Under the pieces are notes generated by a model. The model saw nothing but the letters and a program-made list of their open reading frames with translations. It did not search any database and was not told the origin of the DNA. 39,161 nt of DNA from an uncultured Sphingomonas sp. (GTDB lineage Bacteria > Pseudomonadota > Alphaproteobacteria > Sphingomonadales > Sphingomonadaceae): assembly GCF_937871615.1 (NCBI RefSeq), contig NZ_CALMPA010000055.1, positions 1 to 39,161 on the forward strand. Direction: 5' to 3'. The position numbers and the translations under genes were made by a program. Below are positions 10,901 to 27,473 of this stretch, piece after piece (position 1 is the first letter of the stretch; each line of letters starts with the position of its first letter).

Positions 10901-11234
10901 TGTCGGCCCAGCCGAGAATGCAGCAGCCCTTGCCGCCGCGCGCCTTGCCGATCGACAGCAGCCGGGTCAGCCGGCTCCAGGCGGCGCGGTTCTGCGGATA
11001 GAGGAGAAGATCATGGCCCTCGGTCGCACGAACGCGGGCGCCCGGGATCATGCGCACGCCCGTCGTTTTCTGGCCGTCCCAGCCGCGTACAACACCGGCA
11101 ACGCTACCCCAGTCGGCGAGCCCGAGTGCGCTGTGCCCCTGCAGCGCCGCGGTCGCAAACAGCTCCTCGGGCGAACTCGCGCCGCGCAGGAACGAGAAAT
11201 GGCTCATCACCTGAAGTTCGACGTACGCCGTCAT
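7974..11234 (-). CDS. dnaE2: Error-prone DNA polymerase DnaE2
   Basis: This 1086-residue C-family polymerase carries out mutagenic translesion synthesis with ImuA and ImuB. Order of domains: an N-terminal PHP domain ([20 protein letters not shown]), the polymerase palm with the catalytic [16 protein letters not shown] block near residue 370, fingers and helix-hairpin-helix region ([20 protein letters not shown]), and a C-terminal OB fold ([20 protein letters not shown]). The GASSPEEL and ending RSHDFH are typical of alphaproteobacterial DnaE2 rather than replicative DnaE. Its ATG overlaps the imuB stop by one base (TGATG), which implies translational coupling in the SOS-controlled imuA-imuB-dnaE2 operon. 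A 26-codon frame begins inside its last codons, but nothing supports it as a gene. Confidence 0.97.
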
Positions 11235-13039: not shown

Positions 13040-13733
13040 CGCATGCCTCGAGCACGATAGAGAATGGATTGCCGTTGCGCTGCCGCACCAGCTCGACCGA
13101 CCAGCAGGCGCGGCCGACGCCTGGCGCAGGCAAGGGCAGGGAGGGTGCACAGCCGATCCGCCAGCGGGTCATCGCCGCGGACGGACGTTCGAGCGGATCG
13201 CGGCTGGTCCTGGCCCAGCGCCGGAGCAGCAACATCGGCGTCCGGCCATCGGCGGCGGCCAGTTGCAGCCGCCGTGTGGCGGTCTGGTCAGCTGCCTTCA
13301 CCTCGGCGACCACGGCGGCAAAACTGCCGTCGCGCAGCGAGTCTTCGGCGAGCGCCAGCGCCATCACCTCGTTTTGGTCCTGGAGGTAGAGCAGTTTGGC
13401 AGCCGGCAGCCCGGCCTGTTCAAGACCGGGCGCATAGAGATCGAAGCGGGTGAGCGCCCAGGCGACGGTGGCGCCGGCCCCAGCAGCGAATCGGGCGGCA
13501 AGCCCCGCGAGGAACAAAGTAGCGGCAGCATCGTCGCCGAGCGTCGGCGAGGCGGCGGTGATTTCGTGCAGACCGCCGCCGTCGATACCGCCGGCCCCGA
13601 GCCGCCGGTCTAGCTCATCGACGCCGAACGGAAGCGCGTCGATCGTCTCGCCTGCCTTGATCGCCACCGATGCGCGAAGAGTATTGAGCACATGCGCACG
13701 GTCGGGAACGGTCAGGGCGGGCACGTAGGACAT
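12957..13733 (-). CDS. imuA: ImuA, RecA-like mutasome component
   Basis: This 258-residue protein belongs to the ImuA/SulA-like family that acts with ImuB and DnaE2. I chose the ATG at 13733 (MSYVPALTVPDRAHVLNTLR), because starts further upstream would place the LexA box inside the coding region. The core resembles a degenerate RecA fold: IDALPFGVDELDRRLGAGGI, then GGLHEITAASPTLGDDAAAT in the place of a Walker A loop but without its GK[ST]. The middle segment VAWALTRFDLYAPGLEQAGL and the region LLYLQDQNEVMALALAEDSL are typical. The C-terminal tail overlaps the imuB start by 83 bp. Confidence 0.9.
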   Translation of the reverse strand: MSYVPALTVPDRAHVLNTLRASVAIKAGETIDALPFGVDELDRRLGAGGIDGGGLHEITAASPTLGDDAAATLFLAGLAARFAAGAGATVAWALTRFDLYAPGLEQAGLPAAKLLYLQDQNEVMALALAEDSLRDGSFAAVVAEVKAADQTATRRLQLAAADGRTPMLLLRRWARTSRDPLERPSAAMTRWRIGCAPSLPLPAPGVGRACWSVELVRQRNGNPFSIVLEACDDTGRLALPAPARHRAAAAVGAASQAA

Positions 13734-13754
13734 TGCAAGGGAATCTACTCTTTT

Positions 13755-13769
13755 GTTCCCTCTATGTTC
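13755..13769 (+). promoter_or_regulatory. LexA (SOS) box of the imuA-imuB-dnaE2 operon
   Basis: GTTC-CCTCTAT-GTTC is an exact match to the alphaproteobacterial SOS box GTTC-N7-GTTC. It lies 22 bp upstream of the imuA start, written here on the plus strand while the operon runs on the minus strand. LexA bound here should block transcription until DNA damage. Confidence 0.9.
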
Positions 13770-14328
13770 ACAGACTCGGCCATCCGCGTCAAGTTGCTGA
13801 GCAGCCCCCTGCGCTAAATGGCGAGTTTGGGCTGCTCGGTCGCGGGCGGATAACCCCGCCCATTGCTTCACCTGCGCTCATGCGCGACAACAATGGTCGG
13901 TCTCTGGTTGCCGTTGAATGAAAAGCGGGGGTCACGTCACTTACGAATACATCGTCAAAATCTGGACTTCAGAACCAGAGCGGTTCATCGTCAACCCGAT
14001 CCACCAGATGCCGGGACTGAACACCTAGGCTGTCAGTGCACTTGAATTTTGCCGCTTGGGCTCTAGGCTGATTTCCGCGCCGCGAGGATGCGGCGCCGAG
14101 GCGTGAGAACCTCGCTTGAGGAATTGGTTTCGCGATCACTGCGGCCGGGTGGCCGGCGCGTATGTTCAGGCCGTTCGCGGCTAAAGGCGTCGGCGCATGC
14201 TCAAGCGTGTTCTCAACACCCGGCTTTTGACGGCCGTGCCTCGTTACGGGAGCATGGTCGCAGATGCGCGCGAGAGGGTGGTGTCATAACGACGAAGGTG
14301 CAAGCGTCCCGGGACGGACGGCGAGATC
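13770..14328. other. Intergenic region between imuA and the ECF sigma gene
   Basis: No supported gene is seen. A perfect 9-bp inverted repeat, GAGCAGCCC (13799-13807) and GGGCTGCTC (13829-13837), could form a hairpin with a 21-nt loop but lacks a T-run. The short frames here have no family resemblance. The promoter of the sigma factor operon must lie within it, but I see no decisive -35/-10 pair. Confidence 0.5.
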
Positions 14329-14919
14329 GTGCGCCTGAGTTTCGACCCCGAGTTGGAGAGCGGCGCGGCGGGGCTGTGCGATGTAGAGCACGTGCGAGAG
14401 GGCGGCCGCGGGCACACTCCGCCTGAGCGGTCCACACTCGAGGCGCTCTACCATTCCCAGGCCGCTCGACTGTTTCGCCTGTTCCGACGGCGCGCTGATC
14501 GGCAAGAGGCCGAGGATCTGGTGCAGGAGACCTTCACCCAATTCGCGCATGCCGATATCGGGCGGCCGTCGGCGATCGACTGTCCCGAGGCCTATTTGAC
14601 CGAAGTGGCGGGCAATGTGCTGCGCAGGCGCGCGAGGACCGCGGCGCGGCGATCGGCGGCATTGCATGTATCCATCGACGACGTGCCGCTCGTCGGACAC
14701 GATCTGGAGCGGTCGCTCGAGGCGCGTGATATGCTAAAGCGACTGGAAGTCGCTATGCTGGCGCTCAAGCCGATGACCCGAGAGATTTACTTTGCCTGCC
14801 GTTTCCATGGCTACAGCCGGGCGGAAATCGCCGAGCGCACCGGGCTCCGGATGAAGGCGATCGACAAGCATCTGGGCAAGGCGACCGCGCATATCCGTCG
14901 CACGATTGGCGCGCGGTGA
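14329..14919 (+). CDS. FecI-like ECF sigma factor
   Basis: The 196-residue product is an extracytoplasmic-function sigma factor. Region 2 is LEALYHSQAARLFRLFRRRA followed by EAEDLVQETFTQFAH; region 4 is LALKPMTREIYFACRFHGYS followed by RAEIAERTGLRMKAIDKHLG, a helix-turn-helix. The start used is GTG at 14329; a later in-frame GTG near the family N-terminus cannot be excluded. Its stop overlaps the FecR start by one base (TGATG). With FecR and an STN-bearing receptor directly downstream, it fits the FecI-FecR-FecA surface-signalling scheme, in which receptor occupancy releases the sigma factor to transcribe the receptor operon. In published lasso isopeptidase clusters, such pairs are a recurrent companion. 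Confidence 0.92.
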   Translation: MRLSFDPELESGAAGLCDVEHVREGGRGHTPPERSTLEALYHSQAARLFRLFRRRADRQEAEDLVQETFTQFAHADIGRPSAIDCPEAYLTEVAGNVLRRRARTAARRSAALHVSIDDVPLVGHDLERSLEARDMLKRLEVAMLALKPMTREIYFACRFHGYSRAEIAERTGLRMKAIDKHLGKATAHIRRTIGAR

Positions 14920-15941
14920 TGCTGCGCCATCCTTTCCGATCGCGAACCGCGCGGCGTGAAGCGAACGACTGGCTCGTACGGGTCCAGTTGAGCGACGCGT
15001 TCGATCGCGACGCGTTCGAGGCATGGCGGTCGGCCGACCCCGCTAATGCCGCTGCTTATGACGATCTGATCCAGGATTTGACCATCAGCGCCCCGCTCGC
15101 CGATACCGAGATGGTGCGGACGGCGGAATTGCGCCGGGCGTCGTTTCTCGAACGCAATCCCGGCGCCGGCTATGCAATTGCCGCCAGCGTCGCCGCGATG
15201 CTGCTGGCCGGTACCGGTGTCAGCCTGCGCGAAGCGGGCTATTGGGGGGCGTCGACCGCCGCCAGCCAGGACACGCTCTACGCCACCCGGGTCGGAGAAG
15301 TTCGAACGATCACGCTCGCGGACGGCTCCCGGGTCACGCTCGATACGGATTCGATCCTGCGCGTCGCCTTCACATCGAGCGAACGTGCGGTGCGGCTCGA
15401 TGCCGGCCGCGCGCGCTTCGAGGTCGCGCACGATGCCGCGCGTCCATTCATCGTCAACGCGGGAAGTGGCCGGGTCATCGCGCATGGCACGATCTTCGAC
15501 GTCAGCATCCGGCCGGCAGGGGTCAACGTTGCGCTGCTGCGTGGCGCGGTGGAGGTGACGCGAAAGGCAAGCGTTGGCACTGGGCAGCCGGACGCGCCGT
15601 CCCGTCGCCTCAGCCCGGGTCAGCAGGTGACGTTTGACCAGATTCATCCGATTCCGCCAGCGCAGCCGCTGCGTCCCGCCGCGTTGCGCTGGACTTCTGG
15701 CATGCTCATGTTCGAAGGCGCGCGGCTCGCCGATGCCGTGGTCGAATTCAATCGCTATAATCAGCGCAAGCTTTCGGTCGCGGCGCCCGCTATCGGCGAT
15801 CTCAGGATTACGGGGGCCTTTCGCGCCAGCGACGTGCGGCGTTTCGCCGATGCGATGGCGGCATCGTTCGATCTTGTCATCCTCGACCGGGCGGGAGGCG
15901 GACTGCTGCTTGCACCGCGTACCATCCCCCAGGCGCCGTAA
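14919..15941 (+). CDS. FecR-like inner-membrane sigma regulator
   Basis: The 340-residue protein should hold the neighbouring sigma factor inactive until the outer-membrane receptor signals. The N-terminal cytoplasmic part has the FecR-type DUF4880 motif (ANDWLVRVQLSDAFDRDAFE, then AWRSADPANAAAYDDL). One transmembrane helix follows at about residues 85-105 (YAIAASVAAMLLAGTGVSL). The periplasmic FecR domain includes VGEVRTITLADGSRVTLDTD, VRLDAGRARFEVAHDAARPF and NAGSGRVIAHGTIFDVSI. The C-terminal STN-like DUF4974 segment (ARLADAVVEFNRYNQRKLSV) would contact the receptor's signalling domain. ATG at 14919 overlaps the sigma stop codon, so the two are coupled. Confidence 0.93.
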   Translation: MLRHPFRSRTARREANDWLVRVQLSDAFDRDAFEAWRSADPANAAAYDDLIQDLTISAPLADTEMVRTAELRRASFLERNPGAGYAIAASVAAMLLAGTGVSLREAGYWGASTAASQDTLYATRVGEVRTITLADGSRVTLDTDSILRVAFTSSERAVRLDAGRARFEVAHDAARPFIVNAGSGRVIAHGTIFDVSIRPAGVNVALLRGAVEVTRKASVGTGQPDAPSRRLSPGQQVTFDQIHPIPPAQPLRPAALRWTSGMLMFEGARLADAVVEFNRYNQRKLSVAAPAIGDLRITGAFRASDVRRFADAMAASFDLVILDRAGGGLLLAPRTIPQAP

Positions 15942-16024
15942 GAAAAAATACGGGGAACAATTCCGCGCGTCGGGATCAAGCGCTCCGGACGATGCCATTT
16001 TCGAGCGTCGTCGGGGGAGAGACG

Positions 16025-18604
16025 ATGCGATTTTCGCCATTTTCAGCAAAGGCATTCGGGTGCACCGCAAGCGCGATCGCGATGATCGCGGGGGCGCCGG
16101 GCGCGCATGCCGAGGACGCCGGACAGTATAGCTTCAACCTGCCAGCGCAGCCGCTCGGCATATCGCTTCGCGCGGTCGCGATCATCACTCACCGCAATAT
16201 CGTTGTGGCCTCGACGCTCACCGACGGCCGGACGGCGCCCGCGTTGTCCGGGGATCTTACCCTTGACGAGGCACTCACGCAGCTTCTTGCGGGCACCGGC
16301 CTCGCTGTCACCAGAATGGGCAATACGCTCGTCATCCGCGCCGCGGCGGCGGGGCTGAGCGCCACCGGTGAGAACGCCGCAGATGTCGTCGTTACGGGGA
16401 CACGGATCCGCGGTGCCGCGGTCGCCTCGCCGGTTATTACGCTCGACCGTGAAACAATCCGCGACGCCGGGCAAGCTAGCCTCGGCGATGTCGTGCGCAG
16501 CATCCCGCAGAGTTTCGGCGGAGGACAGAATCCCGGTATCGGTTTCAATGTACCGGCGATCAACGGTGTCGACACCGGGGGCGGCTCGTCGATCAACCTG
16601 CGTGGCCTCGGCAGCGATGCGACGCTGACCCTGCTCAACGGGCATCGGGTTGCCTATAGCGGCTCGCGCCAGAGCGTCGATGTCTCGACGATCCCGCTCG
16701 GCGCGCTGGACCGGATCGAGATCGTCCCCGACGGCGCGTCGGCGCTCTACGGTTCCGACGCCGTCGGTGGCGTCGCCAATATCATCCTGCGGCGTGATAT
16801 GGCCGGCGTCGAGACAGCGGCACGGATCGGGCGCGCCACCGAGGGCGGCGATTTCCAGCAGCAATATAATGCGACGGGCGGCGCGCGCTGGGCGTCGGGC
16901 GGATTTATCGCCGCCTATGAATTCAATCGCGCCACCGCGATCGACGCGCGTGACCGTGGCTATGCCGCGACGCGTTCGCCGGGGCTCAGGCTGCTGCCGT
17001 CCGCGCGCAACAACAATGCGCTGATCAGCGCCCATCAGACGATCGCGCCGGGACTCGATTTCACCATCGACGGGCTGTTCAACAAGCGCGGCACCTTCTT
17101 CCTTTATCCGCAAAATCCGGCGGGGGATCTTGCCGTCAGCCGGTCGGAGCAGGCCACGACCGATACCGCGTTCGCGGTCGCGCCCGCGCTGTCGCTGGCG
17201 CTGGGGGAGGGGGCCCGTCTCGCGCTGTCGGGGAGTTATGCCGAGGACAGGGTCGATTATCGCAACGATCTCGTCACCCCCGCCGCGCGGACGTTGCTCG
17301 CCGCCGGCTGCTATTGCAACCGCACCGAGTCGGTTGAACTCTCGGGCGACGGTCGGCTCTTTCGCTTGCCGGGGGGCTGGGCGAAGGCCGCGATCGGCAT
17401 CGGTTATCGCAACAGCGCGCTCCTGAACGATCGCGGTGCCGGCAACGCGCTCAATTTCAATCGCTCTCAAGCCAATCATTACGCTTATGGCGAATTGAGC
17501 CTGCCGCTGGTCTCGCCCGACAATGGTGTCGCCGGTGTCACGCGGCTGACGCTCAGTGCCGCTGCCCGCTATGAGCATTATGACGGGATCGGTTCGGTCG
17601 CCAATCCCAAGCTGGGCCTGGTCTATGCGCCAATTCCCGCGCTTGACCTCAAGGCAAGCTGGGGCCGCTCGTTCCGTGCGCCGACCCTGTTGCAACGCTA
17701 CCAGCCCCCCGCGCTGACCCTGCTGCGCGCTGCGACACTCGGCGCGAGCGGGGTTCCGGCCGCGGCGAGTGTGCTTTACCTCCAGGGCGGCAATCCGGCG
17801 CTCAAGCCCGAGCGCGCCGCGAGCTGGTCGCTGTCGGCTGCATTTCATCCGCCCGCGTTGCCCGGCTTCAATGCGGAAGTCAGTTATTTCTCGACAAATT
17901 ATACCGACCGGATCGTGACGCCGATCGGCTTCATCACCCAGTCATTGAGCAACCCGATCTATGCCGCGCAGGTCACGCGCTCGCCCTCGGCCGCTCTGCT
18001 GGCGGCAACTCTCGCGAGCAGTGGGTTGTTCACCAACAGCACAGGCGCGCCCTATGATCCCGGCGCTGTCGTTGCGCTGGTCGACAACAGCAACGTCAAC
18101 GCCGGCCGCCAGCCGATCCACGGCATCGACGCGCTCGTCTCCTATCGCACCGATCTCGGTCCACGCGACAGCATGACGCTGACCGGCAATGCGAGCTATC
18201 TCGTCAGTCACCGGCAGATCAGCGCCGACCAGCCCGTGCTCCCGCTCGCCGGTATCCTGTTCAATCCCCCGCACTGGCGGGCGCGGGCGAGCGCGGGATG
18301 GCGGCACGACGGGATGAGCCTGACCGCGGTCACCAATTATCTCGGACCGCTCAGCGACACCCGCGCGACCCGGCCGCTGCGGATTCCGGGACAGGCGACG
18401 ATCGACCTTACCTTGCGCTACCGGACGCCGGACCGGGCTCCGGGAATCCTGCGGGGCCTCGATGTCAGTTTGTCGGTGCAGAATCTGTTCGATGCCGCGC
18501 CGCCGTTGATCGCCACCGGGCCAGTGACCGACACACCGTATGATTCGACCAATTATTCGGCGGTTGGCCGGTTCGTCGCTGTCACGATCGCCCGAAAATG
18601 GTGA
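16025..18604 (+). CDS. TonB-dependent receptor with STN signalling domain (lasso cluster)
   Basis: This 859-residue outer-membrane receptor has a signal peptide (ASAIAMIAGAPGAHA), then an STN secretin/TonB short domain at about residues 33-85 (QYSFNLPAQPLGISLRAVAI, then DEALTQLLAGTGLAVTR), a plug (DVVVTGTRIRG to DRIEIVPDGASALYGSDAVG), and a long barrel ending in FVAVTIARKW with terminal aromatic residue. The STN domain makes it a transducer that can contact FecR. ATG at 16025 has GGGGGAGAG upstream; an ATG at 15992 would lengthen the signal region and is less likely. It overlaps the isopeptidase start. Inferred role: uptake of the cluster's own lasso peptide and induction of its operon through FecR/FecI. 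Confidence 0.92.
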   Translation: MRFSPFSAKAFGCTASAIAMIAGAPGAHAEDAGQYSFNLPAQPLGISLRAVAIITHRNIVVASTLTDGRTAPALSGDLTLDEALTQLLAGTGLAVTRMGNTLVIRAAAAGLSATGENAADVVVTGTRIRGAAVASPVITLDRETIRDAGQASLGDVVRSIPQSFGGGQNPGIGFNVPAINGVDTGGGSSINLRGLGSDATLTLLNGHRVAYSGSRQSVDVSTIPLGALDRIEIVPDGASALYGSDAVGGVANIILRRDMAGVETAARIGRATEGGDFQQQYNATGGARWASGGFIAAYEFNRATAIDARDRGYAATRSPGLRLLPSARNNNALISAHQTIAPGLDFTIDGLFNKRGTFFLYPQNPAGDLAVSRSEQATTDTAFAVAPALSLALGEGARLALSGSYAEDRVDYRNDLVTPAARTLLAAGCYCNRTESVELSGDGRLFRLPGGWAKAAIGIGYRNSALLNDRGAGNALNFNRSQANHYAYGELSLPLVSPDNGVAGVTRLTLSAAARYEHYDGIGSVANPKLGLVYAPIPALDLKASWGRSFRAPTLLQRYQPPALTLLRAATLGASGVPAAASVLYLQGGNPALKPERAASWSLSAAFHPPALPGFNAEVSYFSTNYTDRIVTPIGFITQSLSNPIYAAQVTRSPSAALLAATLASSGLFTNSTGAPYDPGAVVALVDNSNVNAGRQPIHGIDALVSYRTDLGPRDSMTLTGNASYLVSHRQISADQPVLPLAGILFNPPHWRARASAGWRHDGMSLTAVTNYLGPLSDTRATRPLRIPGQATIDLTLRYRTPDRAPGILRGLDVSLSVQNLFDAAPPLIATGPVTDTPYDSTNYSAVGRFVAVTIARKW

Positions 18605-20757
18605 GCATGGATCGGCCGATCCGGACCGCGCGGCTGGTCGGGATGATAGTGGCGGCACTGGCAATGCTATCGGCTCCGCGCGCCGAGGCCGCGTGTGCCG
18701 ACTGGAGTCCGCTCGACAATCGCGGCGCTGCGGTAGGTCGGGCGGTGACCGCAGCCGATTTGATCGGACTGGTCAATTTCGGGCGCCCCGACGCCGAACC
18801 GGTCGGGGGTCCGAGCCCGCTGGCGCTCTCGCCGGACGGTCGATGGGTCGCCACGATCCTCCAGCGCGCCGACCTCGCGACCAATGGCTATTGCCAGGCG
18901 CTGGTTGTGATCGATCTGCGCGGCCGCACCATGCCGCGCGTGCTCGATCGCGGTGGCGACTATCTCATGACGACGGTCGCGATGCGCGCGATGTCCATCC
19001 CCAACGGCTTCCCGCGCCTCAACGCGCCGCGCTGGTCGCCTGACGGACAGGCGATCGCCTATCTGCGGCGCGACAATGGCCGGACGCAATTGTGGCGCGT
19101 TCGGCTCGCGGGCGGGCCCGCGCAACCGGTCACCCACGCACCGGTGGACGTGGATGCCTGGGCCTGGGCCGGGGATGGCCATTCGCTGGTCTATGCGAGT
19201 GCGCCGGACCGGATCGCGGCGGAAGCGTCGATCGACCGCGAAGGGGTGGCTGGATGGCATTATGACGCGCGGACAGCGCCGGCTTACGGTATCCGACCCC
19301 AGGTGCACGCGCCGCTACCGCAGGTGACCGTGCTGGTCGACCCTGAAACGGGCGCCACATCGCCGGCGAGTGTCGCGGACCAGCGCCCGGTGGCGCACGA
19401 TGGCGATGAGCCGCTTGATCTGCGCCGTACTAACGCGCGGGGCGACATGGTCTGGGCCGAGCGGGAAGGGGCGTCGCCACTTGCGCCGTGGCGGCTTCAC
19501 GCGCGCCGCGCGGGTGGTGCCTCCGCGCCGTGCGGCGCCGATGCCTGCGTCGGACGGATCCTTGGTCTGTGGTGGGACGGCGATGGTCGGCACATGACCT
19601 TCCTCAAACGGGAAGGCTGGAACGAGCGTTTCGCCGCGCTCTATCGTTGGTCGCCGGGCCGCGACACGCCGCGCCGGTTGTTGCGGACCGATGACGAGTT
19701 GGGTGGATGCCGGCTGGCGCAACGCGCGCTGCTCTGCGTCCGCGAAGGCGCGACCCGACCGCCGCGCCTGGTATCGATCGACCTCGGCAATGGCCGCGAT
19801 CATCTGGTGTTCGATCCCAATCCGTCCTTCGCGCGGCTTTCACTGGGATCGGTCAGGCGGCTCGTCTGGCGCACCGACGCCGGCCGCGAGGTCTATGGCG
19901 ATCTCGTGCTGCCGCCCGATTATCATGGGCGCGCGCGACTACCGACCCTGATCGTCCAATATAGCTCGCGTGGATTTCTGCGCGGCGGCACCGGCAATGA
20001 ATATCCGATCTATCTGCTCGCCGCGCGCGGTTTCGCGGTGCTCAGCATCCAGAAGCCGGCAATGGTCGCAGCCTCCTTCCCGATGCTGACATCGTTCGAC
20101 GAAATCAGCGTGGTCAACACGCGCGACTGGGCCGAACGCCGCAATATCGCGTCGGCGATCGAGCGGGGCGTGGAGCTGTTGGTCGCACGCGGCATCGCCG
20201 ATCCGGCGCGGCTCGGCATCACCGGCCTCAGCGACGGCGCATCGGCGGTGCGCTTTGCGCTGAGCCGATCGCGCCTGTTCGCGGCGGCGGCGATCAGCAG
20301 CTGTTGCGTCGAAGAATCCTCCGACACGCTCATGGGGCCGGCCTGGGAAGCCTATAGCCGGACGATCGGCTATCCGCCGGCCTATCCGGTCGATCGCGCG
20401 TTCTGGCGCCCCTATTCGCTGGCGCTCAACGCCGATCATATCGACACGCCGCTGCTGATGCAGCTCGCCGATTCCGAGCTGCTGACGGGGCTTCCGGCGT
20501 ATACGGCGCTCCACGCCTATCGCCAGCCGGTCGATCTCTATGTCTTTCCCGGGGAATTTCACATCAAATGGCAACCGCAACATCGGCGCGCGGTGTTCGA
20601 ACGCGTGCTCGACTGGTTTTCCTTCTGGTTGCAGGGACGCGAGGATCCGGCGCCGGCCAAGGCAGCCCAATTCGCCCACTGGCGCGCGCTGCGCGCTGCG
20701 GGCGATCGCGCGGGGCGCCCGGACCATCCTTCGCTCACAGCCGCGTCACGCCCATGA
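18598..20757 (+). CDS. Lasso peptide isopeptidase (AtxE2-like S9 family)
   Basis: The 719-residue protein is a prolyl-oligopeptidase-like hydrolase of the lasso isopeptidase type, which cuts the macrolactam bond and linearises the threaded peptide. It has a signal peptide (LVGMIVAALAMLSAPRAEA), a beta-propeller with repeats such as PLALSPDGRWVATILQ and APRWSPDGQAIAYLRRDNGR, and a C-terminal alpha/beta hydrolase domain. The nucleophile is the Ser in ITGLSDGASAVRFA (residue 542 counted from the ATG at 18607) and the catalytic His is in FPGEFHIKWQP (652); the acid probably lies in LADSELL. ATG at 18598 overlaps the receptor gene by 7 bp; ATG at 18607 is equally good. Its 3' end overlaps lasso C tail to tail by 12 bp. 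Confidence 0.92.
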   Translation: MVSMDRPIRTARLVGMIVAALAMLSAPRAEAACADWSPLDNRGAAVGRAVTAADLIGLVNFGRPDAEPVGGPSPLALSPDGRWVATILQRADLATNGYCQALVVIDLRGRTMPRVLDRGGDYLMTTVAMRAMSIPNGFPRLNAPRWSPDGQAIAYLRRDNGRTQLWRVRLAGGPAQPVTHAPVDVDAWAWAGDGHSLVYASAPDRIAAEASIDREGVAGWHYDARTAPAYGIRPQVHAPLPQVTVLVDPETGATSPASVADQRPVAHDGDEPLDLRRTNARGDMVWAEREGASPLAPWRLHARRAGGASAPCGADACVGRILGLWWDGDGRHMTFLKREGWNERFAALYRWSPGRDTPRRLLRTDDELGGCRLAQRALLCVREGATRPPRLVSIDLGNGRDHLVFDPNPSFARLSLGSVRRLVWRTDAGREVYGDLVLPPDYHGRARLPTLIVQYSSRGFLRGGTGNEYPIYLLAARGFAVLSIQKPAMVAASFPMLTSFDEISVVNTRDWAERRNIASAIERGVELLVARGIADPARLGITGLSDGASAVRFALSRSRLFAAAAISSCCVEESSDTLMGPAWEAYSRTIGYPPAYPVDRAFWRPYSLALNADHIDTPLLMQLADSELLTGLPAYTALHAYRQPVDLYVFPGEFHIKWQPQHRRAVFERVLDWFSFWLQGREDPAPAKAAQFAHWRALRAAGDRAGRPDHPSLTAASRP

Positions 20758-22533
20758 CCGCAGCCACACTTCGACATCCGCCAGCCGCATCACCCGGGCA
20801 TAATCATGCCCCCTGGTCGGCGCGGTATCGTCGAGCACCGCGGCGATCGCGGCGCGGTCGAGCAGTCCGTACGCGGCGAGCATCCCGTCGAGCAGCAGCG
20901 ATTTGAGATGCGTCCGGTGCCGCTCGAAGAGCTCGACGATGAAACTGTCCATCGCCCCCTTCGAGCGGCGCCATGCGATGCCTGGCGGGAGCATCGCCGA
21001 GAAGCCGTGCCGGGCGATCGCGCGGTTGCGCCCGCGATCGAACCAGCGCCACGTCGGCACCGACAAACATGCCTCGATCACCGGTTGCGCGAGCAGCACC
21101 GCGATCGACGGGAGCGACGCGCGCGCATCGGGGCTTTGCACCAGGCTGAGCGCGCCCAGGACAAGTGCGACATGCGCCGCCGAGCCCGGCATGGTGCCGG
21201 GAGGTGCTGCCAGCCACGGGTGGGCGAGCGCCGCCTCGCGCTGCCCGGCGGCGTCGACCGACAGCAGGCTCGTGTCGCCGCGCCAGCGATAATCCGGCCG
21301 GCCGCGCCAGACCCGCGCCATCGCCTGCTGCAGTACGGCGAACGTCGTCGTCTGGGCGAGCGCTGCAATGTCCCGGGCCAGGTTGGGGAGGTCGGTGCCG
21401 ATTTTCCCCGCCAGGATCAGATCGGCGACCGGTGCCGCTGATTGCAGCGCGCAAAAGACATTGTCGCCCCCGCCGCCATGGACGATCGCGCTGGCGCCGA
21501 GCGACGCCGCGGCGGTTTCCGCCGCACGCATCGTCGCCTGGCTGAAGCTGCGCGCGATGGGATAGGGAAGTCCGGCGGCGGCGGAATGCGCGATATCGAC
21601 CATTGCGGTGTCGCGGACGATTTCGATCAGCGGCATCGCGAGGTGCGACGCGGTCGCGCGGGCATGCGCGCGCTCGTCACCGCCGGCATCCCGCGTGACC
21701 ATGGTGATCGCGGTGCAGCACCGCTGCGCCCGTGCCAGTGCCGCTGCGACGATCGAGGAATCGAGACCGCCCGACAGCAGCAGGATGGTCACGTCATGGT
21801 GCGCGGTACGCGCCGCCACGACCTCGCACACCGTATCGGCGACGCGGCGTGCCGCCAGCGCGGCGTCGTCGCAGCGGCGTTCGCGCGTCACGCAGGACCA
21901 GGGCGACCAGATCACCTCGACCGACGCATTGCCGCGCAGCGACAGACGCTCGCCACCCGTCAGTTCGCGCACGCCGGCAAGACACGTCGCCGGATGCCGG
22001 ATATCGGCCGCGATAAGATGGGCAGCGATCGCGTCGAGCTCGAACCGCGGCGCATAATCGCCCAGCCGCATCAGGAGATCGATGTCCGAGGCGAGCATCA
22101 TTCCTGCGGGGCAAGCGTGATAATAGCAGGCGAGGTCGCCGAACGGCGCGCGCACCACGCTGGTTCCGTCGTGCGGGTCGGGAAGGATGGCGACATAATC
22201 GCCCCAGAAAAGGTCGATCAATGCGCCGCCGCGCGTGTCGCGCAGCATCTGTGCTTCGGACGCGGTGAGTGTCGCGGCAGCGGCGACCTCCCCGCGGCGG
22301 AACGCGCTCCCGATCACCACGCCGCTATCGTCCCCGTCGCAATCCTCCGCGCCGCGATCACCCCCGCGGTTGTCGACCCGGAGCGCCGCGCGCGTGGTGA
22401 GGACAGTGGCGTCCCTGCTGGCGAGCGTCACATCAAAGCCGGCGTGCGCGGCCTTCGCCGTCAGTGCCGCCCGCCAGCGTTCACCGGTCGCGGCATCGTT
22501 GGCTAGGAAAACGAAATAGCGCCCGCCAGTCAT
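20746..22533 (-). CDS. Lasso peptide cyclase (C protein, asparagine synthetase-like)
   Basis: This 595-residue ATP-dependent enzyme adenylates the Asp/Glu side chain of the core peptide and closes the macrolactam with Gly1. Residues 1-200 resemble the glutaminase half of asparagine synthetase but lack the N-terminal catalytic Cys, as expected of lasso cyclases. The synthetase half has the pyrophosphate loop SGGLDSS at 254-260 (TILLLSGGLDSSIVAAALAR). Other blocks are IVHGGGGDNVFCALQSAAPV and, near the C-terminus, GIAWRRSKGAMDSFIVELF. Its ATG overlaps the B gene stop (ATGA), so the two are coupled. It converges with the isopeptidase gene, overlapping it by 12 bp. Confidence 0.93.
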   Translation of the reverse strand: MTGGRYFVFLANDAATGERWRAALTAKAAHAGFDVTLASRDATVLTTRAALRVDNRGGDRGAEDCDGDDSGVVIGSAFRRGEVAAAATLTASEAQMLRDTRGGALIDLFWGDYVAILPDPHDGTSVVRAPFGDLACYYHACPAGMMLASDIDLLMRLGDYAPRFELDAIAAHLIAADIRHPATCLAGVRELTGGERLSLRGNASVEVIWSPWSCVTRERRCDDAALAARRVADTVCEVVAARTAHHDVTILLLSGGLDSSIVAAALARAQRCCTAITMVTRDAGGDERAHARATASHLAMPLIEIVRDTAMVDIAHSAAAGLPYPIARSFSQATMRAAETAAASLGASAIVHGGGGDNVFCALQSAAPVADLILAGKIGTDLPNLARDIAALAQTTTFAVLQQAMARVWRGRPDYRWRGDTSLLSVDAAGQREAALAHPWLAAPPGTMPGSAAHVALVLGALSLVQSPDARASLPSIAVLLAQPVIEACLSVPTWRWFDRGRNRAIARHGFSAMLPPGIAWRRSKGAMDSFIVELFERHRTHLKSLLLDGMLAAYGLLDRAAIAAVLDDTAPTRGHDYARVMRLADVEVWLRSWA

Positions 22534-23198
22534 AGGATGAGGATCGGTGTGAATGGTCGTACGACATGCTGCCGGTCACTGATCAGCACGCCGTCGATCA
22601 GCACCCACGCATGGGCCTGGAACGGGCGGAGCCTGACCCCGAGCAGCAGATCGGCCGGGAAACCAGAGGCCAGCGCCCGCCGCGCGATCGCCAGCGACAG
22701 CGCGAGGCATTGGTCAAGCGCGCCGACGATCCGCCCGGCTGCGTGGAACGCGGCCGCCAGCGCGGCCAGTTCCTGCGGATCCGGCCGGCGGTGCGGCGAT
22801 AGCGCCGCCTTGGCCGCGCCGAACGTGGCGCACAGCTGATGCAATGGGCGCCGACGCAACTCGAGCTTCGCGCGCGCGAGGCCGAACGCCGCGCGCGCGA
22901 CCGCTGCAGCCCCGACACGCGGCAGCTCTTCGCCATCGAGCGGCGCGGCCCCGATTCCGGCCGGCGGACAGGGGTGCGGCCTTGCCCCGTCGCGACCGGC
23001 AACAAGCAAGCCGCTTTGCCGCAGGCGGTCGAGCCGCGCGCGCGTGTCACTGTCGAGCACGGCGCCGCTCACCAACGCGGCGAACGCCCGGTCGGCGACA
23101 CTTTCGAGACAGAAATAGCGGTCGTTGGGCAGGTCGAGGAACAGGTGACGCCCGCCTGCGTCGCAGAAGCTGATCCCGGGTGCGAGCGCGAAGCACAT
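22530..23198 (-). CDS. Lasso peptide B protein (leader binding plus leader peptidase)
   Basis: The 222-residue protein combines the two functions that are split as B1 and B2 in Gram-positive clusters. Residues 1-60 form the precursor-recognition (RRE) part (GRHLFLDLPNDRYFCLESVA). Residues 110-222 form the transglutaminase-like cysteine peptidase that removes the leader. The triad is visible: C164 (LDQCLALSLA), H196 (FQAHAWVLI) and D208 (VLISDRQH), with the same 12-residue H-to-D spacing as I recall for McjB. It follows the precursor gene after a 51-bp gap holding a strong hairpin, and its stop overlaps the cyclase start (ATGA). Confidence 0.92.
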   Translation of the reverse strand: MCFALAPGISFCDAGGRHLFLDLPNDRYFCLESVADRAFAALVSGAVLDSDTRARLDRLRQSGLLVAGRDGARPHPCPPAGIGAAPLDGEELPRVGAAAVARAAFGLARAKLELRRRPLHQLCATFGAAKAALSPHRRPDPQELAALAAAFHAAGRIVGALDQCLALSLAIARRALASGFPADLLLGVRLRPFQAHAWVLIDGVLISDRQHVVRPFTPILIL

Positions 23199-23215
23199 GG
23201 TCAGATGCCCGACTA

Positions 23216-23243
23216 GCGCGCGCGGGGACTGACCCGCGCGCGC
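23216..23243 (-). terminator. Hairpin between lasso precursor and B gene
   Basis: GCGCGCGCGGG (23216-23226) pairs perfectly with CCCGCGCGCGC (23233-23243) around a 6-nt loop. It begins 6 bp after the precursor stop codon and has no T-run, so it probably acts as an attenuator or 3'-end stabiliser that favours precursor mRNA over the downstream enzyme genes rather than a full terminator. Confidence 0.7.
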
Positions 23244-23249
23244 CTGCGG

Positions 23250-23369
23250 TCAATCGTTCGAAAGACCGGTGGCGACGAGCCCGATAAAGTCGTCGCCCGG
23301 CTGGAGACCCGGGCCCTGCGTCTCGATGCTGGCGGTGCCGAGCTCGATCACATCGTCTTCGCGTTCCAT
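23250..23369 (-). CDS. Lasso peptide precursor (A gene), 39 residues
   Basis: Read by eye on the minus strand: leader MEREDDVIELGTASIETQ (18 residues) followed by a 21-residue core, GPGLQPGDD then FIGLVATGLSND, ending at TGA 23250-23252. The leader has Thr at the -2 position and the L-G-x-A-S-x-E-T-x signature of proteobacterial lasso precursors such as astexins. The core starts with Gly1 and carries Asp at 8 and 9, giving an 8- or 9-residue macrolactam ring with the tail threaded through it. AAAGGAAA upstream is a good ribosome site. The GPG start, GD at 7-8 and GLSxD end resemble, from memory, sphingonodin-type cores. It sits directly upstream of the B and C genes. Confidence 0.93.
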   Translation of the reverse strand: MEREDDVIELGTASIETQGPGLQPGDDFIGLVATGLSND

Positions 23370-23487
23370 GGCTGTTTCCTTTCGATCGCTGCGATTCTGC
23401 AGCGCCTCGAAATTATGCCCATGAGCGCGCTATTCGAATTTTATACGGGGAATATATCGAGATAGTTTTTGCGAAATGGGCGCACGC
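23370..23487 (-). promoter_or_regulatory. Probable promoter region of the lasso A-B-C operon
   Basis: This 118-bp gap between gntR and the precursor is the only sizeable spacer in the luxR-to-C run. It holds an AT-rich core (23431-23465) with a TATAAA on the minus strand at 23440-23445 and TTCGAA and ATTCGAAT palindromic motifs nearby. No convincing -35 or lux-box was recognised. A GntR- or FecI-dependent promoter here is inference. Confidence 0.45.
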
Positions 23488-24102
23488 TCACGCGTGCGGC
23501 GCGTAGATCGCGCGGACGATATCGGCGACCTGCTGCGCGCGCCGGCGATGATAGGCATTGCACAACCTGCGCAGCACCGGGCGATCATCCGCGCACCACG
23601 CGCTGCGTAGCGCATCGAATTCCTGTTGGCGGTCGGCGATGACCTGCCCCTCGACGAGGCGTGCGACGTGCAGTCGCGCATTCGCCGACGCGATCGCGCC
23701 GCGATGCTCGATATTGCCCGATCGCCCGGCGATCATGGCGAAGAGACGCGCGGTATCGTCGACGATGTTATCTGTGTTACCTGTCGCGTCGGCGGGCAGC
23801 GCCTCGACGTGCGGCCCCCGCCGCGCGCCGATGCCGACCCCAAGCAATTGCGCGGTCCAGATATAGAGATCGCGCAGCCCGATCTCGTGGATGGCGGGAA
23901 TATGAAAGCCGTCGCTGGTGCGGCTGTCGACCAGACCCTCGCCGGCCAGGAGGTGCAGCGCATCGCGGATCGGGGTGACGCTCGCTGAGAGTGTTTCGGT
24001 GAAGGCGGCCGGATCGAGCCGGATGCCCGGGCGAAATTCACCGCGCTGGATGCGGCGCTTGAGCGCGTCATAGACGCGCTCGGACGTCACCCCGGCATTC
24101 AT
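23488..24102 (-). CDS. GntR-family transcriptional regulator (FadR/FCD-like)
   Basis: The 204-residue protein has an N-terminal GntR winged helix (ERVYDALKRRIQRGEFRPGI, then ASVTPIRDALHLLAGEGLVD) and a helical C-terminal effector domain of the FCD type (ANARLHVARLVEGQVIADRQ, then RPVLRRLCNAYHRRRAQQVA). It overlaps the end of phyH by 4 bp (ATGA) and lies 118 bp before the lasso precursor. GntR regulators are, as I recall, a recurrent member of isopeptidase-type lasso clusters. It probably controls the A-B-C promoter. The effector is unknown. Confidence 0.88.
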   Translation of the reverse strand: MNAGVTSERVYDALKRRIQRGEFRPGIRLDPAAFTETLSASVTPIRDALHLLAGEGLVDSRTSDGFHIPAIHEIGLRDLYIWTAQLLGVGIGARRGPHVEALPADATGNTDNIVDDTARLFAMIAGRSGNIEHRGAIASANARLHVARLVEGQVIADRQQEFDALRSAWCADDRPVLRRLCNAYHRRRAQQVADIVRAIYAPHA

Positions 24103-24992
24103 GATGCCCGGCGTTGCGCGCCGACGAAATCGGCGATCAACCGTTCCTGGTCGGGGCGCAACGCGTCGATCGCCCCGAGCGGTCCGCCATCATGCTCGCC
24201 GAGCAGGATCGATGGGCATTGGCCTTCGAAATTGCCGAGATTGGGGCGATGCTGGCGATAGCCGACCAGTGCGGCGAGGTCGGGCGCAAAATGACGCGCG
24301 ACAGCCGGCGGGTAGGCGAGCCACTGATTCTCATAAGGCTTGAGCCAGCCGAGGCAGTAGCTCACGATCATCCCGCGCCGCACCGCTGCACTGTCGTTCC
24401 CGCCCGCGCCGTGCAGCGTCGATCCGAGAAACATCAGCGCGGTGCCGGGTGACATGGCGGCGATGACCGGATCGTTGGCCGGTGCGGTTTCGCCGACGTT
24501 GTCGCCGTGGCTGCCCGGCCAGATCAGCGTCGCGCCATTCTCGCTATTATAGTCGGTGAGCGGCCACATCACATTGACGAGATATTCGATTCTGCCAGTC
24601 TCGCCCCGCCACATATCCTGGTCGCGGTGCGGGAGCTGCGGCAGCGCGCCGGGATGAAGCGCGATCGCCTGGGTGAGGTTGAGCTGTATCACATCGCAAA
24701 ACGGGCGCAGAATGCGCTCGGTGATGCCGAGGATGAGGTCATGCTGCACCAGCGTGGCGGCGCGATCGGAGCGCGTGAGCAACCGCCCGAACCGTTTCGT
24801 GCGCCGGCCATAGAACAGACCGTCGCAAAACGGCGTGTCGGCAAAGGCGCCCGCGAGGTCCGCGTCGAGCGCGGCGATCTCCGCCGTCGGCACGAGGTCG
24901 GGGATGACGACATAGCCCTGCTCGAGCAATTGCGTGCTCCAGCGTTCGACCGCCTTGTCGCTGGCCGGCGCGATGATCGGGTCATGCCGCAT
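24099..24992 (-). CDS. Phytanoyl-CoA dioxygenase (PhyH) family protein
   Basis: This 297-residue protein is a non-haem Fe(II)/2-oxoglutarate-dependent oxygenase. The iron ligands appear as H-x-D in LPHRDQDMWRGE and the distal His in GSTLHGAGGNDS, with a 2-oxoglutarate-binding Arg in RRGMIVSYCLGWLKPYENQW. It overlaps luxI by 11 bp and gntR by 4 bp, so it is translationally coupled within the quorum-sensing unit. A phyH gene directly after luxI is, as I recall, a conserved arrangement in Sphingomonadaceae. Possible roles are hydroxylating the acyl chain of the signal or, less likely, tailoring the lasso peptide; the sequence does not decide. Confidence 0.9.
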   Translation of the reverse strand: MRHDPIIAPASDKAVERWSTQLLEQGYVVIPDLVPTAEIAALDADLAGAFADTPFCDGLFYGRRTKRFGRLLTRSDRAATLVQHDLILGITERILRPFCDVIQLNLTQAIALHPGALPQLPHRDQDMWRGETGRIEYLVNVMWPLTDYNSENGATLIWPGSHGDNVGETAPANDPVIAAMSPGTALMFLGSTLHGAGGNDSAAVRRGMIVSYCLGWLKPYENQWLAYPPAVARHFAPDLAALVGYRQHRPNLGNFEGQCPSILLGEHDGGPLGAIDALRPDQERLIADFVGAQRRAS

Positions 24993-25596
24993 GGGACAGC
25001 TCCTCGACGCTGGCGCCGTGCCACGTTCCTGCCTCGTCCAGCAGCGCCGGGGTCTCAGGCGTGATCTTGATCTCGAGGGCGCCGAGCAGCGCGCTCCCCG
25101 ACGTCAGCGGGAGGCCGAGCGGGCGGCAATGCCAGCCGAACGCCAGTATCTGCTGCAGCCAGCCGATCTCGGCGACGCCGGTATAGCTTGAGATGCCGGT
25201 CGCTAGCGCATGGTCGACCAGCGTGCTGACGAGGCGGTTGCGGACCGTCAGGCGCTCGGCCGCGCGCAACCGGCGATCGAGGCAGAAACGGGTTATCTCG
25301 AAGATCGTCGGCCCGCTTGGCGCGGGGCCCTCGCACAATCTCGCAAACAGCGTATCGAGGATATGCGGCCGTGTCGTCGGGAGCAGACGCGCAGAGGCGA
25401 GGTGGGTGCCGGCTGCATCGGTCAGCAGCACATAGATCGCGCCCGGGCGGTCGAACTGATCCACCTCGAAACGGTCCGCGACGACCGGTACGTCCCAGCG
25501 CAGCAGGTCGACGAACACGCGCTTGCGCGCCGCGAACATCGTGCACAACCGCGGGTCGTCGCGCCAGCGCGGGGAATAGCCGATAATATGCAGCAT
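24982..25596 (-). CDS. Acyl-homoserine-lactone synthase (LuxI family)
   Basis: The 204-residue enzyme joins an acyl group from acyl-ACP to S-adenosylmethionine to make an acyl-homoserine lactone. All classical LuxI positions are present: R24, F28 and W34 (FAARKRVFVDLLRWDVPV), D46 and D49 (FEVDQFDRPGA), R70 (LASARLLPTTRP), E100 and R103 (IFEITRFCLDRR). The acyl-chain length cannot be read off. The 75 bp upstream separate it from luxR on the same strand, and its end overlaps phyH by 11 bp. Initiation at 25596 gives the normal MLHIIGYS N-terminus. Confidence 0.95.
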   Translation of the reverse strand: MLHIIGYSPRWRDDPRLCTMFAARKRVFVDLLRWDVPVVADRFEVDQFDRPGAIYVLLTDAAGTHLASARLLPTTRPHILDTLFARLCEGPAPSGPTIFEITRFCLDRRLRAAERLTVRNRLVSTLVDHALATGISSYTGVAEIGWLQQILAFGWHCRPLGLPLTSGSALLGALEIKITPETPALLDEAGTWHGASVEELSHAA

Positions 25597-25671
25597 GATC
25601 TCGCCTCCATCCTGTGAGGCGGCGAAGATCGATCGGGTGGCGATGCGCCGCTATTCCCAGAAATGGGCATA

Positions 25672-26418
25672 TCATCGCCGGAAAATGTCGGCGAAGCTGA
25701 TCGTTCCGTCGAACAACGTCCGGATCAGCAATGATGTCCTTTTCTGTACGCCATAACGCTCGCGCGCCTGTTTGAGGTGTCGGATCACCGTTTCTTCGCT
25801 GACATCGACGATGCGGCTGGTCTCCCAGTCCGATTTGCCGCGCGCCACCCAGATCAGGCAATCGCGTTGCCGGTCGGTGAGTTTGGGGATGGCGAGCATC
25901 GGCGCGCGCATGCGCCTCAGGCGTCGCGCGCCTTCGAACGCGAAGGCGCCGGCGAGTTGCGCCGCCGACAGCATTTCTGTGGGGAGGGGGCGGCCGGCAA
26001 TAGTGGCGAAGGACACCGATCCATTGGCTTCGCCGGGAATATGCGCGGGTATCGTGAAGCCCTCGCCGATGCCATGCTCACGGGCGTGCGCCAGAATCTC
26101 GTGATCGCCAGCGGTGAGATTGATCATGCGCGGCACCTGCGACCAGGCGAACCCGACATTGGTGTGCTCACTGGCGCGGTGGACCGGATCGGAGAGGCCA
26201 AGCCGGTTGCGATCGAAGAACTCGACCCAGCTTTCCGGATAATTGTGCAGCCGGACCGCCTCATCGCCGATGTGCAGCATATCGACGTGATGGGTCAGCG
26301 CGAAATAATGAAAACCCAGCTGGCTGGTGATCAGCGACAGGCTGGCGTGCAGCGCGCCGGGCGACGAAAGATGCGCGGCCGCGCGGGCGAATTCCTCCAC
26401 CAGAGGCAGCAGGTTCAT
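25672..26418 (-). CDS. LuxR-family quorum-sensing regulator
   Basis: This 248-residue transcription factor should bind the signal made by the adjacent LuxI. I use the ATG at 26418 (MNLLPLVEEF); the longer frame upstream has no family similarity. The autoinducer-binding domain shows W64, D77 with P78 (GLSDPVHRASEHTN) and W92 (FAWSQV), corresponding to W57, D70 and W85 of TraR. The C-terminal LuxR helix-turn-helix is KLTDRQRDCLIWVARGKSDW, then IVDVSEETVIRHLKQARERY. It is transcribed in the same direction as luxI, phyH, gntR and the lasso genes. Confidence 0.93.
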   Translation of the reverse strand: MNLLPLVEEFARAAAHLSSPGALHASLSLITSQLGFHYFALTHHVDMLHIGDEAVRLHNYPESWVEFFDRNRLGLSDPVHRASEHTNVGFAWSQVPRMINLTAGDHEILAHAREHGIGEGFTIPAHIPGEANGSVSFATIAGRPLPTEMLSAAQLAGAFAFEGARRLRRMRAPMLAIPKLTDRQRDCLIWVARGKSDWETSRIVDVSEETVIRHLKQARERYGVQKRTSLLIRTLFDGTISFADIFRR

Positions 26419-26629
26419 CGGCTCAACGTACGATCCCGAGCAGTGCCTCAAGTCACCGGTCGTCTCGCGATCGCCCTTTCCCCCGGGCATCGGCCAGAGG
26501 CCGGGCTCTCATGCCGGCATCGTGCGCATCCGAAAGCGCAAGGATATGGCCAGACCCTGCGGGTTTCGAGCCATGGTGCATCGACTCGTCTCGTGATAGC
26601 AACGCTTCAACCACAAACGCCGCAAGCGA

Positions 26630-27473
26630 ATGGTGGGTGAATTTCCCGGCCGCAAGCGCGTTGCGGCCAGATTGCACACGATAGAGCCTGCCGCACCGGT
26701 TTGCGACTGGCGCGATGACCAGGTCTATGCCCGTCTGGCGGGCATCGATCGTGCCGGGTTGATGTGGGAGTGGCTGCGGCGCGACCCAGGCTATATCGCC
26801 TGGCACGCGCGCGCCAGTGTCGTGACGCGTGGTCACGCGTCAGGGGATGTTCCCGACGTCGACCCGATCCAATGGGGTCTTCACTTTCGCCGAGAGTCCG
26901 GGCCGCACGGCCCCCGACGCCCGGCTGATCTGGCATGCCGATTGTGATCCCGGGATATTGCGCGCCACCGCCGCCCCGACATCGTCGTCCGATCCCGACG
27001 GTATCACGCCGGCCTTGCTTGGGCGCTGGCTGAGCGTCGTCGCGGATATGAGCGGCGAGCACGTGGTGCTTTCCGATGGCTGGCGTCATATCAGGCTCGA
27101 TATCGCGTGCGGCAGTCTCGATGCGGGGCCAGTGGTGCTGCATTACCAGCTGGCGGGATTGGTGAGCGCCGAGCATGCGATCCTCCCGCTCAGGCGTTTT
27201 CTCGATCTGTGCCGCAATCGTCGGTTTTCCGTTTCGCTCTATCCTCCCGACCGGCGCGTCGCGCGGTGGATCGTGGTCCTGCGTGTTCATGATGCGCTTG
27301 TCGCCGGCGCGAGCCAGCGTGACATCGCGCGGGTGCTGTTTGGCGGCGACCTGGCATTGGACACAGGGGCGAGAGAATCGGATTCGCTCAGGTCGCGCGT
27401 GCGACGGCTGGTCGCCGATGCGCGGCGGCTCGCCGGGGGCGGATATCGCCTTCTGATGCACCAGAAGGAGTGA
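26630..27473 (+). pseudogene. DUF6499/DUF2285 protein with a frameshift
   Basis: The first part (26630 onward) encodes DWRDDQVYARLAGIDRAGLM, then WEWLRRDPGYIAWHARA, the DUF6499-type N-terminal region. At about 26887 one extra C shifts the frame: IQWGLHF should continue as AESPGRTAPDARLIWHADCD, which is found in the other frame and runs to 27473 through the DUF2285 domain (GHILPLRRFLDLCRN-like region, then VHDALVAGASQRDIARVLFG). DUF2285 proteins are typical of sphingomonad and rhizobial integrative conjugative elements. It is either a pseudogene or carries a sequencing error; the DNA alone cannot tell. Confidence 0.75.

Follow-up and report, generated by a model that had tools for sequence, protein, structure and literature searches.

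The window analysed here, an entire contig of 39,161 bases from a 3.99-Mb genome of an uncultured Sphingomonas sp. (NZ_CALMPA010000055.1), carries a complete isopeptidase-type (benenodin-family) lasso peptide cluster joined to luxR, luxI, phyH and gntR, as established by gene coordinates together with Pfam and NCBIfam profiles. The adjacency of lasso and quorum-sensing (QS) genes is a family-wide pattern, and judging from sequence comparison it is likely that acyl-homoserine lactone (AHL) controls the lasso peptide. Our best guess for the route from quorum sensing to the peptide is the GntR regulator: we consider it fairly probable that AHL-bound LuxR drives luxI-phyH-gntR, and that GntR sets the transcription of the precursor, leader peptidase and cyclase genes (A-B-C) through a conserved element in front of A, termed the A-box. 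The peptide, the QS enzymes and the receptor are all of known kinds; it is their joint arrangement that is new.

Linkage was assessed in 298 genomes of the family, with isopeptidase matches taken at E up to 1e-100 (54 matches, 50 of them over the family cut-off) and genes counted as linked within 20 kb. A luxI gene lies within this distance of 30 of the 54 isopeptidases, against a chance expectation of 1.0 on average and 6 at most over 2000 random placements in a 3.6-Mb genome, and chance adjacency of luxI and lasso genes is therefore rejected. The 30 linked isopeptidases fall in 28 of the 41 genomes and in 19 of the 20 genera having isopeptidase matches, and phyH adjoins luxI in every linked pair. 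An earlier note on this DNA had proposed control of the peptide by cell density, had suggested a search for co-occurrence across genomes, and had named beforehand an adjacency confined to this strain as counting against the proposal; the family genomes show instead that the adjacency is common to many genera. The genus sample (37 of the 61 genomes searched) gives a similar picture, with 11 of 12 luxI genes within 20 kb of an isopeptidase and a luxI near 11 of the 14 isopeptidases that exceed the cut-off. Isopeptidases are rare in the rest of the class: in the class sample, one of 307 genomes has an isopeptidase match (the window's own genome excepted) and that genome has no luxI match, while two genomes from the same order and another family have both luxI and isopeptidase, unlinked.

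The link involves those luxI genes that are accompanied by phyH. In the family genomes phyH lies within 3 kb of 86 of 119 luxI genes, and an isopeptidase lies within 20 kb of 30 of these 86 versus none of the 33 luxI without phyH. If genes for the B2 domain of the leader peptidase are also considered (lower bounds, from the 150 B2 matches listed), at least 33 of the 86 luxI-phyH loci are within 20 kb of an isopeptidase or B2 gene, and one of the 33 luxI without phyH, in genome G067, is near a B2 gene. The phyH of G067 is split, and its two parts (221 and 190 bits) were left out of the phyH counts, which took in 91 matches of at least 231 bits. When it is restored, 87 of 119 luxI have phyH, at least 34 of them near an isopeptidase or B2 gene, and none of the remaining 32 is near an isopeptidase or a listed B2 gene. 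The reverse situation, phyH with no luxI found beside it, was seen in L153 (12681), L154, L155, L156 and L143, with luxR present in four of the five; in L153 this phyH adjoins a lasso cluster.

The spacing of the linked genes is also conserved. In 22 of the 30 pairs luxI and the isopeptidase are 4.2-5.9 kb apart and on opposite strands, and in the other eight they are 7.9-13.5 kb apart. Four layouts were recognised among the loci compared, the first being the window order, which Sphingomonas paeninsulae shares. In the second, gntR-phyH-luxI-luxR is divergent from fecI (L068-L071, L073, L077-L079); in the third, luxR-luxI-phyH-gntR runs into fecI (L081 and a second locus of the window genome); in the fourth, luxR-luxI-phyH precedes fecI and gntR is near B (L082, L097), with the gntR of L096 starting at the edge of the retrieved stretch. 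The second locus of the window genome (G000 contig 23, about 59-72 kb; L062 and L063) is a rearranged lasso cluster with its own luxR-luxI-phyH-gntR. The bond between lasso and QS genes thus survives rearrangement, as seen from window, mirror and split orders and from a second copy in one genome. Two further lasso-luxI loci, L100 and L101, have fecR-fecI between B and gntR, and no phyH was found in them.

Two conserved cis elements were newly found here. The first is a predicted lux box between luxR and luxI (25653-25670, minus strand, ATGCCCATTTCTGGGAAT, 23.1 bits), an instance of an 18-bp palindrome with consensus ATCCCCAGATCTGGGGAT that occurs 3' of the luxR stop in most of the luxR-luxI segments examined. 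With the search anchored on the luxR stop and a score threshold of 12 bits, the box is present in 31 of 39 lasso-linked luxR-luxI segments; where the stretch has luxI-phyH but no lasso genes, it is present in 4 of 14 segments. Against a matrix from which it and near-identical sites were excluded, the window site scores 20.4 bits, and 30 shuffles reach at most 17.2. In the whole genome it is the only 0-mismatch match to a pattern derived from the consensus; three sites match with one mismatch, one of which is upstream of the second luxI (C23:71308), and allowing up to two mismatches gives 29 matches vs 3 for a reversed control. The predicted box in the window most likely serves luxI.

The second element is the A-box, a putative promoter or operator of the precursor gene at 23430-23460 (minus strand, 38.0 bits), which ends 60 bp before the start codon of A. 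It contains TATA-like repeats about 11 bp apart, is located about 60 bp before the precursor start codon, and is distinct from the lux box. Of 45 segments scored, 43 were above the inclusion limit of 3, and 54 of the 60 matches of at least 18 bits in all loci lie at A or just upstream of B. Scored with the window and near-identical sites excluded, the window element reaches 34.4 bits and 30 shuffles at most 15.8; with the full matrix, 20 shuffles reach at most 23.5 bits. Among 62 lasso loci with B, a precursor was recognised in 50 (the 12 others were not included), and at a threshold of 14 bits the A-box precedes A in 41 of these 50, clusters without nearby luxI included. The conserved element before A suggests that a promoter region belongs to A-B-C itself, so that these genes are more than the last part of a luxI operon.

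The presence of the A-box follows the lineage of the regulator. In a tree of GntR sequences, one lineage of 45 members, 40 of which adjoin phyH, was designated the QS lineage, the remainder being termed others; a contig scan of genomes with a single GntR query gave four loci, three of which were used. Of 34 loci whose gntR belongs to the QS lineage, 33 have an A-box of 14 bits or more (one of the 33 being L149, a re-fetched copy of L075), the lone locus without it being L082, whose class is borderline (160 vs 145 bits). The element was found in one of seven loci with a gntR of other lineages (L147, 15.4 bits), in one of two with gntR of unclear class, and in six of the seven with no gntR found in the stretch, the seventh being L096. 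The six gntR-less loci with an A-box belong to genomes G033, G169, G203, G230, G312 and G356, all of which have a QS-lineage gntR elsewhere (L098, L127, L152, L143, L126 and L151, respectively) in a distant luxR-phyH-gntR module, five of these modules with luxI and that of G230 without. This is the pattern that a trans-acting regulator would leave. The A-box therefore appears to go mostly with the luxI-phyH-linked GntR lineage, even when the module sits elsewhere in the genome, a relation that is also newly found here.

These data suggest the following scheme. AHL made by LuxI would bind LuxR, which would then bind the predicted lux box and drive luxI-phyH-gntR, probably as one mRNA because the genes overlap. 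PhyH, as part of the signalling module, probably modifies the signal or the donor of its acyl group. GntR would act on the element at 23430-23460 and set transcription of A-B-C, possibly with contributions from a basal promoter and from a degree of read-through out of luxI. An AlphaFold model of GntR (pLDDT 83, four sequences) matches GntR-family proteins in the PDB such as AlkR/VanR and McbR, and this family includes many repressors. The FadR/VanR-like fold suggests that the window GntR is a repressor too, so that quorum may switch the peptide off; it may instead switch the peptide on, should GntR be released by a ligand. The mature peptide would exit the cell and return via the STN receptor, which could signal through FecR and FecI, and the isopeptidase would linearise the returned threaded peptide.

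Several observations weigh against this scheme or parts of it. As many as 24 of the 54 isopeptidase matches have no luxI within 20 kb, so that QS is not required for isopeptidase-type lasso clusters, and 8 of the 39 lasso-linked luxR-luxI segments score below 12 bits for the lux box. The matrix scan of the window gave no lux box at A or fecI, and a direct lux box at the A promoter is rejected for the window. L107 has an A-box with a divergent gntR, and there is no luxI match in its genome. L206, from another family, has an A-box-like element (29.2 bits) before A in a stretch with a LuxR-like gene and no detected gntR; this suggests that the A-box may predate the QS link or may be partly a plain promoter, and the outgroup check weighs against a strict GntR reading of the element. 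In a further outgroup locus, L207, the A-box matrix matches at up to 30.7 bits, counted irrespective of position relative to a precursor. The distances between LuxI and the isopeptidase are weakly correlated (Mantel r 0.33), and those between LuxI and C or B only somewhat more so (0.42-0.44). Finally, the matrices were trained on the loci that they score, the GntR classes come from one tree, and related loci are not independent.

The distance correlations as a whole, from up to 34 non-redundant loci holding both genes of a pair, are as for two modules that recombine, with gntR between them. On the QS side, Mantel r is 0.82 for luxI-phyH and for luxI-luxR; on the lasso side, it is 0.77-0.78 for isopeptidase-C and isopeptidase-receptor. 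The value for luxI-gntR (0.78) exceeds those for gntR-isopeptidase (0.50) and gntR-B (0.57). In the LuxI tree, 40 of the 43 lasso-linked sequences belong to one group of 46 and three are among the other 16. The lasso-link label needs seven changes on this tree, four of which are forced by well-supported branches, which suggests that lasso links were gained or lost repeatedly.

Next to luxR, and divergent from it, are two overlapping open reading frames (ORFs) at 26630-27473 (plus strand) that were absent from the earlier note's list. ICEMlSymR7A, whose quorum sensing is of the TraR/TraI type, offers a comparison for these ORFs. Its protein FseA is known for a +1 frameshift and for control by quorum sensing, which stands upstream of DUF6499 and DUF2285 ORFs in a +1 relation (PMC10359603). 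The first window ORF (26630-26947) is DUF6499-like, an assignment by in-frame motif only, in that its WEWLRRDPGY resembles the AWEFLRRN motif in PMC10359603; the second (26829-27473) is a DUF2285/RovC DNA-binding ORF (PF10074, 1.9e-16) in the +1 frame of the first, and together they have the layout of FseA. A DUF2285 gene is present within 700 bp of luxR in 33 of 49 lasso-luxI loci, or 31 of 47 if the re-fetched copies L149 and L163 are discounted. Among 27 other phyH loci, which include L153 with lasso genes and no luxI, 6 have such a gene. In L068-L071, L073, L077 and L078 the DUF2285 open frame is preceded, at a distance of about 30 bp, by a predicted lux box (16.6-19.8 bits), and there is none before that of the window (0.9 bits). 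The presence of an FseA-like pair beside luxR in many relatives hints at control of mobile elements. The output of FseA in ICEMlSymR7A, unlike what we propose for the window, is excision and transfer of the element, and the text of PMC10359603 has no occurrence of lasso, phytanoyl, luxi or sphingo.

From this it is conceivable, if rather doubtful, that a single AHL circuit in the Sphingomonadaceae governs more than one process: it would act on the lasso peptide by way of a dedicated GntR lineage, also in trans on lasso clusters at other places in the genome, and on conjugative transfer by way of the FseA-like protein, with the receptor-isopeptidase loop then reading the peptide back. If so, the lasso peptide would be a second, slower and private signal, or a public good, added on top of quorum sensing and linked with the exchange of genes.

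The same genes allow another explanation, in which luxR-luxI-phyH and the FseA-like gene form a conjugative transfer-control module and the lasso cluster is hitch-hiking cargo with no regulatory tie. The frequency of FseA-like genes near luxR in the non-duplicate lasso-luxI loci and the two modules seen in the distance correlations are consistent with this, and the locus of four named relatives is plasmid-borne, with tra/trb or parB genes alongside, the plasmids being Lpl of Novosphingobium sp. PP1Y, unnamed1 of Sphingomonas paeninsulae, pBSY18_2 of Blastomonas sp. RAC04 and pCHQ1 of Sphingobium indicum UT26S. In pCHQ1, some 4.5 kb separate luxI-phyH from fecI, and the lasso cluster retains its own gntR of another lineage. 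We nevertheless regard mere cargo as unlikely. The 22 linked pairs of one spacing class have luxI always on the strand opposite to the isopeptidase; gntR, a member of the lasso cluster according to the literature, is located within the QS operon and belongs to the lineage that goes with the A-box; and a Pfam scan of 20 window proteins, a subset of the window ORFs, shows no transfer gene. Plasmids were also searched at the DNA level using the complete locus, which gave three records, each matching 3-4% of the query. A phyH of the window kind (E up to 1e-40) is present on 38 plasmid records, mostly from sphingomonads (Sphingobium 18), and occurs on plasmids of Variovorax, Hydrogenophaga and Methylocystis as well.

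A single transcript starting at the lux box and covering luxI, phyH and gntR as well as A, B and C, with direct control by AHL, was the mechanism implied by the earlier note, and we find it about as improbable as the cargo explanation. The genes from luxI to C share one direction, with overlaps or short gaps, and some read-through could occur because the gntR-A gap of the window has no predicted intrinsic terminator. Against this, A carries its conserved element about 60 bp before the start codon whether luxI is upstream or not, and in the window it has no lux box of its own. Moreover, several layouts have luxI-phyH-gntR directed away from A or placed at the opposite side of the cluster, so that read-through cannot be the general mechanism. 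A scan for the sigma-70 consensus was uninformative (one site vs 0.8 expected). The earlier proposal is therefore weakened as regards a single run of transcription, while AHL control itself gains from the cross-genus adjacency, its persistence through rearrangements and the conserved lux box. Our preferred route remains the one through GntR. As to PhyH, iron- and 2-oxoglutarate-dependent hydroxylation of a lasso peptide is known for CanE (a reference title in PMC9266682), yet we reject a tailoring hydroxylase, which would explain its position in the cluster, as very improbable, because phyH also accompanies luxI without lasso genes (53 of 86 luxI-phyH loci have no isopeptidase or B2 gene, among the 150 B2 matches listed, within 20 kb) and co-varies closely with luxI.

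The lasso part of the window is like the astexin, benenodin, sphingopyxin and sphingocin clusters, which have A, B, C, isopeptidase, a TonB receptor and a FecI/FecR-type pair (PMC9266682), the sphingocin cluster being a further isopeptidase-type comparison (PMC11006600). The receptor and FecI/FecR parts needed for return signalling are standard in such clusters, as is a GntR-like gene before A, and the section of PMC9266682 on isopeptidase-type clusters names no luxR, luxI or phyH. The window differs in that its gntR is joined by overlap to the luxI-phyH operon and is of a distinct GntR lineage. The QS part has the same gene order as the novR-novI-phyH loci of Novosphingobium, in which phyH is beside novI in four of five pairs and was proposed to be QS-regulated (PMC3704786); the word lasso is absent from that text. 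The luxI-phyH of PP1Y plasmid Lpl, apparently one of the five novI pairs, adjoins a complete lasso cluster.

The earlier note had held the joint arrangement to be unreported, and in the accessible portions of the open-access literature we likewise found no description of lasso peptide control by a linked luxI. The union itself appears there only as an antiSMASH label: a 'lassopeptide-homoserinelactones' hybrid cluster is listed for Sphingomonas sp. So64.6b in a paper whose main text does not contain the word quorum (PMC9716278). That region, matched to the strain by coordinates alone (L098, genome G033), appears to share the window arrangement. A sphingomonad lasso cluster has been linked to phenanthrene use in a report that contains neither the word quorum nor LuxR (PMC11006600). 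In Burkholderia, a repressor that rises with AHL lowers expression of the capistruin genes, with no linked luxI named in the accessible text (PMC6963729), a different case from the window arrangement.

The recurring pairing with cell-density sensing suggests control of the lasso peptide by crowding and offers a direct way of testing its purpose. A conserved tie to AHL would say when the peptide should matter, names a candidate promoter element and regulator, and suggests a reason for the possible silence of such lasso clusters in pure culture. The luxI-phyH module, widespread in sphingomonads, gains a candidate target, and the arrangement may link peptide production with plasmid transfer.

The genes described in the earlier note were all present with the positions, overlaps and families given there, as confirmed by profile matches. 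On the receptor and isopeptidase side (plus strand) these are fecI, coding for an extracytoplasmic function sigma factor (14329-14919; Pfam Sigma70_r2 and r4_2) and found at the equivalent position in many related loci; fecR, coding for an anti-sigma regulator (14916-15941; Pfam FecR, 3.5e-21); a TonB-dependent receptor with an STN signalling domain (15992-18604; Pfam TonB_dep_Rec, Plug and STN); and an Atxe2-type lasso peptide isopeptidase (18598-20757; NF033523, 781.6 bits against a cut-off of 400, 7e-235). Converging on them (minus strand) is the asparagine-synthetase-like lasso cyclase C (20746-22533; Pfam Asn_synthase, 7.4e-24), which scores 57.9 bits with the NCBIfam lasso cyclase model, below its cut-off of 525, its identity resting on the general Asn_synthase model. 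The leader peptidase B (22530-23198, minus) matches by its B2 domain only (NF033537, 64.4 bits, cut-off 33), and going by its length we assume an N-terminal B1/RRE part. The precursor A (23250-23369, minus) is a peptide of 39 residues, MEREDDVIELGTASIETQ-GPGLQPGDDFIGLVATGLSND, which matches NF033522 benenodin (47.7 bits, cut-off 33) and PF24178 Subterisin (57.2 bits), both above the model cut-offs, and has a leader motif also found in relatives. From this motif, with Thr at -2, cleavage would be expected before Gly19, and the ring would then probably run from Gly1 to Asp8 or Asp9.

The QS genes follow on the minus strand: gntR, for a FadR/VanR-like regulator of the QS-linked lineage according to Pfam GntR, the AlphaFold model and the tree (23488-24102); phyH, for an Fe(II)/2-oxoglutarate dioxygenase (24099-24992; Pfam PhyH, 1.1e-23); luxI, for an AHL synthase (24982-25596; Pfam Autoind_synth, 1.8e-18); and luxR, with two possible starts (25672-26490 or 25672-26418; Pfam Autoind_bind, 9e-29, and GerE). 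The overlaps are 11 bp for luxI/phyH, 4 bp for phyH/gntR and 4 bp for B/C, and the gaps are 75 bp between luxR and luxI, 118 bp between gntR and A, and 51 bp between A and B. Residues R24, F28, W34, D46, D49, R70, E100 and R103 of LuxI are invariant in 63 of 63 aligned sequences, and H122, D124, H194 and R205 of PhyH, which we take to be the metal and co-substrate residues, in 62 of 62, the window being counted twice in both alignments. Among proteins of solved structure, LuxI is nearest by sequence to AHL synthases, PhyH to 2-oxoglutarate dioxygenases (AusE and EasH, for instance) and LuxR to SdiA, CviR and LasR. LuxR has AHL-binding and helix-turn-helix domains, and its gene adjoins luxI.

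Beside the cluster, large minus-strand ORFs at 7974-13871 presumably represent a dnaE2/imuB/imuA mutagenesis cassette, which they resemble. The region is flanked, as in mobile DNA, by an IS4/5-type transposase (1066-1893, minus) and a large serine recombinase (36924-38975, plus), and likewise by a HEPN/RES-domain protein (34627-35826, plus).

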